Source of the DNA: Candidatus Nomurabacteria bacterium
GTDB taxonomy: Bacteria; Patescibacteriota; Minisyncoccia; Phycocordibacterales; UBA9973
Length of the DNA stretch: 50,482 nucleotides
Assembly: GCA_026395965.1 (NCBI GenBank)
Contig: JAPLXS010000006.1
Location: 182,683-233,164, forward strand
Direction: 5' to 3'
In this document: positions 20,814 to 42,125 of the stretch, piece by piece
Layout of the letters: each line of letters opens with the position of its first letter
How positions within the stretch are numbered: the stretch's first letter is position 1
The notes under the pieces: model-generated
Seen by the model: the letters and a program-made list of their open reading frames with translations, nothing else
Told to the model about the DNA's origin: nothing
Database searches by the model: none
Program-made: the position numbers and the translations under genes

Positions 20814-21005
20814 TCGGGGGGGGGTTGCCTACAGGGACCGCGAGTACACTTTTTGAATCTTACAGATTCTGTACACCTTTCGCGTATTTTGAAATTAACA
20901 TTTCAAAATCCAGGCTCAAGGTTTTCAAATCTCTGACGCGACTAAAGCAGTTTAGTCGCTTAGGACCCCATATTAAAAAAGACCGCTAATGCGGCTTTTT
21001 TAATA
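20814..21005 (-). repeat. tRNA-His tail element (mirrored and direct copies of the tRNA 3' end with hairpin inserts)
   Basis: Reading away from the tRNA: a terminator (CCCCATATTAAAAAAG stem, 20966-21010), whose 3' arm runs into a mirrored copy of the tRNA end; a 9-bp stem with CTGC loop (GCGACTAAA/TTTAGTCGC, 20938-20959); the mirrored T-arm (GATTTGAAAACC); a hairpin with loop TTAACA (20886-20909); and finally a direct copy, GATTCAAA-(insert)-TCCCTGTAGGCA (ending near 20818). The insert GTG-TACT-CGC can form a mini-hairpin. The same layout follows the other tRNAs here. Confidence 0.8.
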
Positions 21006-23824: not shown

Positions 23825-23929
23825 ACTTTTTTATTATATCATTTTGATACATAAGCTCAAGGTATAAAAGTTGAAAATAGAAATATTATTGTGATTACGT
23901 TTCTTGAACCCGATTAAAACTTTTTAAAA

Positions 23930-24196
23930 AAGAGGACCGCGAGCACATTTCTTGGTTCTTACAGAACCTTTATAGGCTTCATATATTTTATAATTATTAA
24001 AAATAAATTATAAGAGGACCACGAGTACATATCTTGACCCCTACTGGGTCTGTACACCTTTCGTATCGTGCTTTCTTCATTACGTGCGATACACTCAAGG
24101 TTTTCAAGTCCTCTCTCGCAAAGCGCACATATGCTTTGCCCGCGCGCACAAATATATAAAATCCCAAAGTTTTAACTTCGGGATTTTATATATTTG
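23930..24196 (-). repeat. tRNA-Leu tail element with a second, shorter unit
   Basis: After the tRNA comes a terminator (stem GCGCACAAATATATAAAATCCC, 24144-24201) whose far arm continues into the mirrored tRNA end. A hairpin GCAAAGC/GCTTTGC (24118-24139) sits between acceptor and T-stem parts, then the mirrored T-arm AGAGGACTTGAAAACC. A large hairpin (GTATCGTGC/GTGCGATAC, 24063-24092) follows. A direct copy GGTCAAGAT-(insert ATG-TACT-CGT)-GGTCCTCT closes the unit, and a second copy of that end lies at 23930-23980. No gene is seen in 23825-24196. Confidence 0.75.
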
Positions 24197-25770: not shown

Positions 25771-25945
25771 CAAATGAAAACAACATGCCTCGGTATGTTG
25801 TTTTCATTTGTGCGCGATGATAAAGCATAATATGCTTTATGTGAGGGACTTGAAAAACCTTGAGTATATCGCACGGAGCGAAGCGAGTACGATACGAAAG
25901 GTGTACAGAACCTGTAAGGTTCAAGTTTCTCATTTTTCACTAGAA
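25766..25945 (+). repeat. tRNA-Val tail element
   Basis: The terminator stem GCGCACAAATGAAAACAACAT (25766-25815) includes the last five bases of the tRNA. The far arm continues as the mirrored tRNA end GTGCGCGATG, then hairpin ATAAAGCAT/ATGCTTTAT (25820-25840), then the mirrored T-arm TGAGGGACTTGAA. A hairpin around 25862-25893 and a degenerate direct copy (AAGGTTCAAGTTTCTCAT, 25916-25933) follow. This copy lacks the TACT mini-hairpin seen after other tRNAs. Confidence 0.75.
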
Positions 25946-26022: not shown

Positions 26023-26190
26023 CTTGCCCTTGTATTGCGAGATATAAAAAACCGAACATACTGTATTTGAAAATAAAATATTTGCCCTTGTAGGGTAAGA
26101 TATAAACCGAACATACCGTATTTGAAAATGAAATATTTGCCCTTGTAGGGTAAGATATAAACCGAACATACCGTATTTGAAAATGAAATA
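26023..26190 (+). repeat. Tandem array of truncated tRNA-Arg 5' ends
   Basis: Three units (58, 55 and 55 bp) stand head to tail before the real gene. Each begins TTGCCCTTGTA, the first nine bases of tRNA-Arg plus two leader bases, and continues with GGGTAAGATATAAACCGAACATAC and the AT-rich leader. The last two units are nearly identical. TTGCCCT-TGT-AGGGTAA can fold on itself, so each unit looks like a 5' tRNA stub ended by a hairpin. Confidence 0.85.
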
Positions 26191-26193
26191 TTT

Positions 26194-26265
26194 GCCCTTG
26201 TAGTTAAATGGATATAACTGCGGACTTCTAAGCCGTTATTGCAGGTTCGATTCCTGCCGAGGGCA
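26194..26265 (+). tRNA. tRNA-Arg (TCT)
   Basis: Acceptor GCCCTTG/CGAGGGC, anticodon loop CTTCTAA (TCT), T-arm GGTTCGATTCC. One anticodon-stem pair is mismatched (A-G next to the loop). CCA is not encoded. It is preceded by three partial copies of its own 5' end. Confidence 0.92.
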
Positions 26266-26525
26266 CAAACAACAAAAAACCATTATTGAAATAATGGTTT
26301 TTTGTTGTTTGTGCCCTCGAGCAAGCCAACTGCTTGGCTTGCGTGCAGGCGATTAGTAAATCGAACCGGGAGGAAATCTAAAACCTTTTCCTTGTGAGTG
26401 TACTCATGAACGAAAAAGGTGTAATGAACCTGCGAATGAGTACATTCGCCTACTGGGTAAGGTTCGATAAGCGTACTCGCGTTCCTGCCGAAACCTCTAA
26501 GTGTCTTGCGTCCAGGCGGTTATAA
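26258..26525 (+). repeat. tRNA-Arg tail element
   Basis: Terminator stem beginning in the tRNA (GAGGGCACAAACAACAAAAAACC, 26259-26318). The mirrored end GTGCCCTCG is followed by GCAAGCCAA-CTGC-TTGGCTTGC (26321-26342), then mirrored GCAGG and a CGATT/AATCG hairpin before AACC. A long hairpin (ACCTTTT.../...AAAAAGGT, 26381-26420) follows. The direct copy reads GGTTCGAT-(insert GCG-TACT-CGC)-GTTCCTGCCG (26470-26500). A last fragment, GCGTCCAGGCGG, borders the DedA gene. No protein gene is seen. Confidence 0.8.
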
Positions 26526-28344: not shown

Positions 28345-28500
28345 ATACGGAGGTGTGGCTATGATATATGAACTGCTTCATATATCATCTGATTCTGATT
28401 AATGTCAGAAATAGCTATTGTGAGTGAAAGCGAACAAGCTATAAGGAAGAGCCTGGGAAGGCTCGAAGACACATACGTAGTAATCGAAGGTTTAATAATA
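28345..28500 (+). repeat. Truncated tRNA-Ser 5' copy with CTGC hairpin, upstream of tRNA-Ser
   Basis: TACGGAGGTGTGGCT at 28346-28360 repeats 28501-28515 exactly (leader plus tRNA-Ser 5' end). In place of the D-loop comes a 12-bp perfect stem ATGATATATGAA/TTCATATATCAT with loop CTGC (28361-28388). Further hairpins follow (ATAGCT/AGCTAT and GAGCC/GGCTC). Nothing else is seen before the real tRNA. Confidence 0.85.
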
Positions 28501-28590: not shown

Positions 28591-28800
28591 CAAATAAGAA
28601 AAATCCCCAATTTTGATTGGGGATTTTTCTTATTTGCGGAGGCGAAGACGTAAACTGCTTCACGTCTGAGTGAGATTCTAACAGCGGAATCATATTTTTC
28701 TAGCAAGAAAAATAGATGAGCTGGTGCCCAGACAAAACTTTTTGGCGAAAAAGTTTTAGTCGTGGGCGAAAAGTGTACTCACGGTCTCACCATGCAAAAA
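28583..28800 (+). repeat. tRNA-Ser tail element
   Basis: The terminator stem CGCCTCCGCAAATAAGAAAAATCCCC (28583-28644) starts within the tRNA. Inserted between the mirrored acceptor and T-stem is AGACGTAAA-CTGC-TTCACGTCT (28646-28667, one mismatch), then mirrored GTGAGATTC. A long hairpin GCCCAGACAAAAC/AGTTTTAGTCGTGGGC (28717-28757) follows, and a direct end AAAAGTG-TACT-CACGG-TCTCACC (28763-28785) closes the unit. Confidence 0.78.
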
Positions 28801-37759: not shown

Positions 37760-38055
37760 AGATACAGGGCCGCGAGTACATATATCGCCTATTACATAGG
37801 CAGGTACTTTTCGCTCTGGTTAACACCAGAGAACGAAAAGTCTTTCGATTTCCTCCCGGTTCGATTTACTAATCGCCTGCACGCAAGACATATAGAGGTC
37901 TCGGTAGGGTAATCTTCCTCTACGAGGACAGTATGCCTTTTCGTTCCGATTAACATCGGAAAACGAAAAGCCCTTCGATTCCTGCACGCAAGCCAAGCAA
38001 TTGGCTTGCTCGGGATCACAATATAAAAAAGCTTAGGTTTACCTAAGCTTTTTTA
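37760..38055 (-). repeat. Double tRNA-tail element attached to a tRNA fossil
   Basis: After the fossil (38056-38082) come a terminator (ATAAAAAAGCTTAGGT/ACCTAAGCTTTTTTAT, 38023-38056), mirrored GATCCCG, GCAAGCCAA-TTGC-TTGGCTTGC (37988-38009), mirrored T-arm GCAGGAATCGAA, hairpin with loop TTAACA (37937-37970), a CCTACCGAGACC fragment, then a second round with GCAGG, AATCGAACC, a TTAACA hairpin (ACTTTTCG.../...CGAAAAGT, 37806-37841) and an ATG-TACT-CGCGG end (37765-37780). Two stacked units are therefore present. Confidence 0.75.
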
Positions 38056-38082
38056 TCGTCCTATCCATTGAACGACGGGACC
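38056..38082 (-). pseudogene. tRNA-Arg fossil (5' acceptor and D-arm only)
   Basis: Minus strand GGTCCCGTCGTTCAATGGATAGGACGA is the start of an Arg-type tRNA; the anticodon and T-arm are missing and a terminator follows at once. The mirrored copy downstream still holds a T-arm sequence (TTCGATTCCTGC on the plus strand) that the lost half would have had. Confidence 0.7.
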
Positions 38083-41624: not shown

Positions 41625-41899
41625 GCACGACAGGCTCGGTAGGACAGGCAGTAGCCTTATTGACTACTATTAAATAAGTAGGAAACGTGAGTACACTTTT
41701 GGTCACTCTCGTGTATTAAGAAGATCTCTCGGTAGGACCGGCAGTAGCCTTATTGAATCTTACTGATTCTGTACACCCATTCGTTTCGGTTAGCACCGAA
41801 AAACGAATGGGTCTTCAATTCCTACACGTGAATGAAGCAGTTCATTCACTCAAGAGGACAATTATAAAAACCCTCAGTAAACTGGGGTTTTTATAATTG
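41625..41899 (-). repeat. tRNA-Lys tail element, at least two stacked direct copies
   Basis: Terminator AGAGGACAATTATAAAAACCC (41853-41905). Mirrored CCTCT is followed by GTGAATGAA-CTGC-TTCATTCAC (41828-41849), mirrored T-arm GTAGGAATTGAA, and hairpin ACCCATTCGTTT/AAACGAATGGGT (41775-41812, inner loop TTAGCA). Then a direct copy GATTCAAT-(AAGGC-TACT-GCCGG)-TCCTACCGAGAG at about 41728-41765 and a second with the same insert at about 41640-41670. A GTG-TACT-CACG/TTTCCTAC copy lies between them. Confidence 0.85.
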
Positions 41900-41972
41900 T
41901 CCTCTCGGTAGGAATTGAACCTACGACCATCTCCTTAAAAGGGAGCTGCTCTACCAACTGAGCTACGAGAGG
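41900..41972 (-). tRNA. tRNA-Lys (TTT)
   Basis: Acceptor CCTCTCG/CGAGAGG, D-arm GCTCAGTTGGTAGAGC, anticodon loop CTTTTAA (TTT), T-arm GGTTCAATTCC. CCA is not encoded. A 20-bp copy of its 5' end lies upstream at 42101. Confidence 0.94.
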
Positions 41973-42125
41973 ATGTTTGGTTTTAAACTATATTATATAT
42001 TATTCACATAGCCAGTTGGAAACGCTACAACTAGCCAACAAAAATATATTTGATTTTAAACGATAATATACCTTATCTTAGTATTCAGTTGAAAACACTA
42101 CAACTGAGCTACGAGAGGATATTAA
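41973..42125 (-). repeat. Truncated tRNA-Lys 5' copies upstream of tRNA-Lys
   Basis: ATCCTCTCGTAGCTCAGTTG at 42120-42101 (minus) is identical to the start of tRNA-Lys and then ends in CAGTTG-TAGTGTTTT-CAACTG, a hairpin in place of the D-loop. A weaker copy of that hairpin (CTAGTTGTAGCGTTTCCAACTGG) lies near 42010-42035. This parallels the 5' stubs of Arg and Ser. The remaining part of the gap (42126-42344) holds nothing else clear. Confidence 0.7.

Follow-up and report, generated by a model that had tools for sequence, protein, structure and literature searches.

In the genome of a Candidatus Nomurabacteria bacterium (Patescibacteria; 698,616 bases, 37 tRNA genes), several tRNA genes are followed by partial copies of their own T-arm, and most of these copies are interrupted by a small hairpin of the form NNN-TACT-NNN. 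A sequence-only reading of one stretch of this genome (50,482 nucleotides of contig JAPLXS010000006.1, hereafter the window) had listed six such inserts, whose flanking triplets differ from one tRNA to the next but stay pairable, and had proposed that the hairpin reflects selection for secondary structure in the T-loop. What, then, is this hairpin part of, and is it maintained as RNA?

A TACT hairpin at the end of an element behind tRNA genes

All six inserts were located and share the orientation of their tRNA: behind tRNA-His (20840-20849, minus strand, GTG-TACT-CGC), in the first module behind tRNA-Leu (24021-24030, minus, ATG-TACT-CGT), behind tRNA-Arg (26471-26480, plus, GCG-TACT-CGC) and tRNA-Ser (28773-28782, plus, GTG-TACT-CAC), and in both modules behind tRNA-Lys (41740-41749 and 41647-41656, minus, each GGC-TACT-GCC), where our R1 model matches at 41733-41782 (64.9 bits) and 41640-41702, respectively. 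Two further copies had been missed, one in a second Leu module (23939-23948, minus, ATG-TGCT-CGC) and one behind a broken tRNA (37772-37781, minus, ATG-TACT-CGC). The loop reads TACT in 79 of 93 hairpins, and TAAT, TATT or TACC in the rest. As to position, the insert had been described as always falling between TTCRA and the 3’ strand of the T-stem. Its 3’ flank is indeed constant, consisting of GG plus the T-stem 3’ strand, but the 5’ side departs from the rule in the Leu (GTCAAGAT), Ser (GGCGAAAA) and second Lys (GTCAATAA) copies. Nor is the hairpin a feature of T-loop copies as such. It is instead a single module within a larger element that looks mobile and that lacks the hairpin in several lineages (L222, L214, L221, L230) and, within the window, behind tRNA-Val.

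This element measures ~100-200 nt, lies 3’ of tRNA genes and has the TACT hairpin, here called hairpin D, as its last piece. We denote as X the sequence TTCRA plus two bases plus the T-stem 3’ strand, as Y the acceptor 3’ strand, and mark reverse complements by primes. Read away from the tRNA, h0 comes first; Y’, hairpin A and X’ follow in this order, then module M with its hairpins B and C, and finally a direct copy of X, which contains D and ends with or without Y. The hairpin h0 is flush with the tRNA end and often terminator-like in the focal genome. Hairpin A comprises ~9 bp and a short loop, and X’ usually begins 32 nt after Y’ does. Module M consists of hairpin B, a GTAC-containing link and hairpin C (for example GAACC-TGTAA-GGTTC), and is followed by hairpin D, GG and the direct copy, in which the T-stem strand may or may not be joined by the acceptor strand. 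Fresh copies of the element retain Y in the direct copy; in old copies its acceptor part has decayed while the stems have stayed near-perfect, and this retention of stems could point to a host function. Since Y’ is identical to the acceptor 5’ strand and X’ includes the T-stem 5’ strand, the series Y’-A-X’-M-X-Y reads as a tRNA-like fold. The loops of hairpins C (TGTAA) and D (TACT) hold complementary GTA/TAC and might pair, but we saw no covariation between the two.

The Lys element (41635-41898, minus) illustrates this layout. Behind tRNA-Lys(ttt) (41899-41972, minus) follow a terminator-like h0, Y’, hairpin A (41827-41850; AGTGAATGAACTGCTTCATTCACG), X’ (41814-41825; the reverse complement of TTCAA plus the T-stem 3’ strand, matching its own tRNA at 12/12 positions), hairpin B, hairpin C (41755-41769; GAATC-AGTAA-GATTC), hairpin D, the direct copy of the tRNA 3’ end (41726-41737; TCCTACCGAGAG) and a second, partial module with a D of its own, all on the minus strand. 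The His element, behind tRNA-His(gtg) (20826-21005, minus; 71.8 bits), comprises Y’ (20961-20969), hairpin A (20937-20960), X’ (20924-20935), hairpin B (20876-20923), hairpin C (20855-20869), the D given above and a direct copy (20826-20837). Behind tRNA-Leu(gag), two modules occupy 23926-24195 (minus). On the plus strand lie the Val element (tRNA-Val(tac), 25772-25930; Y’ 25810-25820, hairpin A 25821-25839, X’ 25843-25854, hairpin C 25908-25922), the Arg element (tRNA-Arg(tct), 26267-26491; 42.5 bits; Y’ 26311-26319, hairpin A 26320-26343, direct copy 26482-26491) and the Ser element (tRNA-Ser(tga), 28592-28791). A last copy (37765-38082, minus; Y’ 38009-38019, X’ 37974-37985) sits behind a tRNA of which only a 5’ half remains (38057-38082; GGTCCCGTCGTTCAATGGATAGGACG), the lost 3’ half surviving as a reverse complement within the element.

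By inspection, about 24 of the 37 tRNA genes of the focal genome have the element behind them; the core model returned 30 matches. In this genome, nearly two of every three tRNA genes thus carry a lineage-specific element which, because the tRNA itself stays intact, is invisible to annotation tools.

Sequences related to tRNA 5’ ends also occur in the window. Upstream of tRNA-Ser, a copy of that gene’s 5’ end (GGAGGTGTGGCT) is followed by a hairpin resembling hairpin A (ATGATATATGAACTGCTTCATATATCAT; both within 28349-28390), which may be an equivalent of the element on the 5’ side. Before tRNA-Arg, 55-nt tandem repeats (26049-26213) each contain the tRNA 5’ end GCCCTTGTAG, and a 23-nt copy of the 5’ end of tRNA-Lys lies upstream of that gene (42101-42123).

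Host-matched arms and shared cassettes

The two inverted arms follow the tRNA next to which they lie: X’ matches its own tRNA at 12/12 positions in 45 of 86 cases, and Y’ at 7/7 in 45 of 86. When X’ was extracted without use of the own tRNA, the own match was 9.66/12 for X’ and 5.81/7 for Y’—values lowered by the misplacement of some X’ positions—while other tRNAs under the same extraction reached at most 7.97 and 4.63 in 1000 draws. Because the arms match each host’s tRNA, they vary among hosts; the outer arms differ in every one of them, and fixed terminal inverted repeats were not seen. We also considered that arm matching might improve with insertion age, a prediction that failed for Y’ (p = 0.34).

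Module M behaves differently from the arms. It is identical over 43 nt between Lys-ttt of G006 and Tyr of G000, scores 0.96 over 53 nt between Leu-gag of G004 and Gln of G002, and 0.95 between Ser of G023 and Trp of G000. Of 60 modules, only 3 had their nearest neighbor at a tRNA for the same amino acid (permutation mean, 4.6). Cassettes common to different tRNA kinds rule out homing from one tRNA to another of the same kind only. As module M is common to different tRNAs and genomes and yet X’ and Y’ match their own tRNA, the cassette appears to move and the arms to become those of the new host.

The same sharing bears on a purely local origin, in which template switching at terminator hairpins would build forward-inverted-forward copies at each tRNA independently, with no mobile element involved. 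Two template switches do yield such a layout, and template switching has been documented both to form hairpins and to make them perfect (PMC8794818; PMC7202029). However, hairpin A and module M recur, sometimes identically, at different tRNAs and in different genomes, and the core is conserved across families of one order and was not found outside it, so that we regard a local origin as very improbable.

Comparison among genomes—most of which are metagenome assemblies—revealed further traces of insertion. At tRNA-Lys, congeners have or lack the element at the same locus: in G010, G002 and G016, trmH starts 3-4 nt after the tRNA, against about 330 nt between the two in the focal genome. Of 107 distinct cores, 82 have a tRNA or tmRNA gene on the same strand no more than 400 nt to their 5’ side; about 20 tRNA kinds and five tmRNA cases are covered. 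The tRNA 3’ end is duplicated directly, with 22/22 matching positions in L222, 21/22 and 20/22 in L214, 21/22 in L221 and L230, and a complete copy in L132; the simplest form of the element, with a complete direct copy and no D, occurs in more distant families. Tandem insertions were seen at one tRNA-Ser of L227, with two distinct subtypes, in L230, with identical repeats, and in G002, with three copies. Overall, the element is short, mostly non-coding, multi-copy and palindromic, and it shows target-site duplication as well as direct duplication of tRNA 3’ ends.

Core matches were present in all 24 genomes of the genus, in some other genera of the family and in several of the order’s families; among 380 genomes sampled from the phylum, only members of this order matched. 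A pattern scan of 85,462 species, with one genome each, returned 37 stretches, and all those with a named group fell within Patescibacteria. Named carriers of the core are Candidatus Nomurabacteria, Taylorbacteria and other Paceibacterota/Parcubacteria. The element had no match among IMG/VR patterns, phages or plasmids, and a phage or plasmid origin was rejected on this ground.

We therefore favor, at odds of roughly two to one, a tRNA- and tmRNA-targeting, palindromic, MITE-like mobile DNA element, so far confined to one order of Patescibacteria, whose arms would be copied from the target by way of a hairpin template.

Covariation without a G-U excess

The covariation claimed for the six inserts holds in a large set of related genomes, where it is significant. 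Across 105 distinct cores, 97.8% of the cells of the core structure pair (71.3% after shuffling), and the covariation score of 0.649 compares with 0.170 for shuffled data, with none of 500 shuffles reaching it; sliding the partner by 1-3 columns brought the score to at most 0.101. Hairpin D is fully paired in 86 of 93 copies, against a shuffled mean of 51.9 and a maximum of 62 in 5000 shuffles. Pairing and covariation are thus borne out. The proposed selection for an RNA structure did not find the same support, since G-U mismatches are not in excess over A-C.

In hairpins C and D, X’ and Y’ taken together, the GU:AC ratio is 36:37, whereas the control, in which acceptor and T stems were scored in 123 genuine tRNAs of these genomes, gave 80:12 (Fisher p = 1.6e-7). 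By part, the counts are 17:12 for C plus D, 15:16 for X’ and 4:9 for Y’. As mismatches in X’ and Y’ measure divergence from the tRNA and not necessarily constrained helices, C plus D is the stricter comparison, and its contrast to the tRNA stems is weaker (p = 0.0023). In the cleanest gapless set, C had 6 GU to 3 AC and D 7:7. Hairpin A, though its sequence varies by host, has 557 Watson-Crick pairs, 5 GU and 2 AC. The lack of a G-U excess, unlike in tRNA stems, speaks against a helix formed in RNA from either strand; an antisense RNA was rejected as well, because A-C mismatches, equivalent to G-U on the opposite strand, show no enrichment either. The mismatch pattern is compatible with DNA hairpins, or with arms held identical by template switching. 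Single template-switch events during replication can yield paired changes and are reported to generate and preserve perfect stems (PMC8794818), for which reason covariation alone is no proof of selection. With extreme covariation and no G-U signature, the element offers a natural test set for telling selection on RNA structure from template-switch mutation.

These data also bear on a cis-acting structured RNA, in which, in a readthrough transcript, Y’ and X’ would compete for the 3’ half of the tRNA, and the direct copy together with hairpins C and D would release it, thereby controlling tRNA folding, 3’ maturation or termination. Strong pairing and covariation speak for such a device, as do the folding of the element (z about -4.5 on either strand), the terminator-like h0 that directly abuts the tRNA 3’ end and the lasting complementarity of Y’ and X’ to their own tRNA. 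Yet GU:AC is near 1:1 on both strands, congeners have or lack the element at the same tRNA, cassettes are exchanged between unrelated tRNAs and the element persists behind a dead tRNA; moreover, an h0 resembling a terminator would end the transcript before the element. Rfam covariance models returned no match to the element, and a T-box, a group I intron, a tRNA-derived riboswitch or another known RNA was rejected on this ground. On balance, we consider a structured RNA improbable.

Proposed movement, candidate enzymes and related systems

For the mobile DNA element favored here, we envisage insertion at the stretch from the T-loop to the 3’ end of a tRNA gene, whereby X and Y would be duplicated, one copy staying in the tRNA and the other ending the element. 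The fixed parts that travel would be hairpin A and module M. X’ and Y’ would be rewritten to the new host tRNA at or after insertion, the likeliest routes being template switching and fold-back DNA synthesis across the palindrome XY-h0-Y’-A-X’. In some lineages, hairpin D would later have been inserted into the direct copy of X, perhaps a change that stops the duplicate T-arm from serving as a target or competitor. To our knowledge, fixed parts interleaved with target-derived parts fit no known transposition mechanism.

Which enzyme could mobilize the element? GIY-YIG nucleases are the leading candidates because three larger copies (L115, L168, L193) carry an open reading frame of this type (Pfam GIY-YIG, E = 1e-15 to 1e-18) where hairpin B would otherwise be, and the core lies at its stop codon; in L115, the core encodes the GIY-YIG C-terminus KKGVLNL*. 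Besides, among 26 small GIY-YIG genes, 6 have a tRNA-Gln gene no farther than 120 nt away, in several orientations (L164, L167, L168, L176, L179, L189). These observations are suggestive, and they would suit a more specific form of the mobile-element reading, namely homing, in which the nuclease would cut the conserved T-loop and repair would copy the element in, short copies having lost the gene and kept hairpin B in its place. Against this stand the small number of linked cases, three in all and of more than one GIY-YIG type, as well as the presence of GIY-YIG genes in genomes without core matches (G038, G041). Homing also depends on homologous flanks, and on its own it leaves the inverted arms unexplained. 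We rate this route as rather unlikely.

A RAYT/REP-like process, with a single-copy Y1 transposase moving hairpin DNA as single strands, would fit the perfect, DNA-like hairpins and their constant geometry, and a Y1_Tnp gene exists in the focal genome and in 37 of 61 relatives. Its presence does not track the element, however: near-complete genomes G008, G022, G033 and G046 have elements and no Y1_Tnp match, and G028, G029 and G059 have Y1_Tnp and no elements. Target duplication is not expected for this family. We give such a process little credence. A retroelement or group II intron would call for a reverse transcriptase in the carrier genomes, but RVT_1 was absent from the focal genome and from G017, G033, G046, G050 and G058, so that neither a reverse transcriptase nor a Y1 transposase qualifies as a required driver. 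Searches for a transposase-coding partner element found none, and no integrase was seen inside the element, typical copies reading as too short for such a gene.

Among known systems, small palindromic elements—MITE-like elements, Rickettsia palindromic elements, YPAL/RU-2 and REP—share a length under about 200 bp, a mostly non-coding and palindromic sequence, many copies and a mobile appearance. Rickettsia palindromic elements are known inside tmRNA and M1 RNA genes, and YPAL has target duplications of 3-26 bp beside its dyad symmetry (PMC2229807). The present element differs in targeting the 3’ part of ~20 tRNA kinds and in arms that match the host gene in both inverted and direct orientation, with no fixed terminal inverted repeats. 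Islands inserted by tyrosine recombinases into tRNA genes likewise duplicate the tRNA 3’ end and leave the tRNA intact; here, in contrast, the element is only ~100-200 nt long, contains no integrase, has an extra inverted copy and occupies many tRNAs per cassette family. Homing-endonuclease insertions in rRNA genes of CPR bacteria (PMC11270868) also target conserved CPR RNA genes and involve small homing nucleases, including GIY-YIG, but they are introns or insertion sequences within rRNA, and tRNA is not mentioned in the main text of that paper. Template-switch (quasipalindrome) correction accounts for perfect Watson-Crick stems, paired changes and homogenized arms; it is a mutation process, not an element, and spreads no shared cassette. 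The literature we searched, which covered few subscription journals or preprints, contained no description of the element.

If it moves as outlined, the element has interchangeable, target-copied arms. It might then represent a new class of mobile element without fixed arms, in which a travelling hairpin A and module M acquire inverted and direct copies of each host’s T-arm and acceptor strand, such that the element re-targets by copying its victim; we advance this tentatively and at less than even odds. Arm copying of this kind would place a tRNA-like fold—an acceptor, one arm and a T-arm with a large loop—right behind the tRNA. We know of no described transposon that re-targets through target-copied arms.

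Three minor observations concern arrays and the remainder of the window. At L047 (C8 of the focal genome, about 154.0-154.2 kb), an array of modules includes a third module class (TCGGGGTCGCACAAATTTTCAGCAGAAAATTATGAGCGACC), and its direct copy matches tRNA-Glu(ttc), a gene 12 kb away that has no element. Behind tRNA-Phe (L007), the entire unit of trailer, terminator and element appears to be tandemly duplicated. Elsewhere in the window, at 2695-2830 on the minus strand, lies a cobalamin riboswitch (Rfam RF01482; 50.4 bits, barely above the cut-off).
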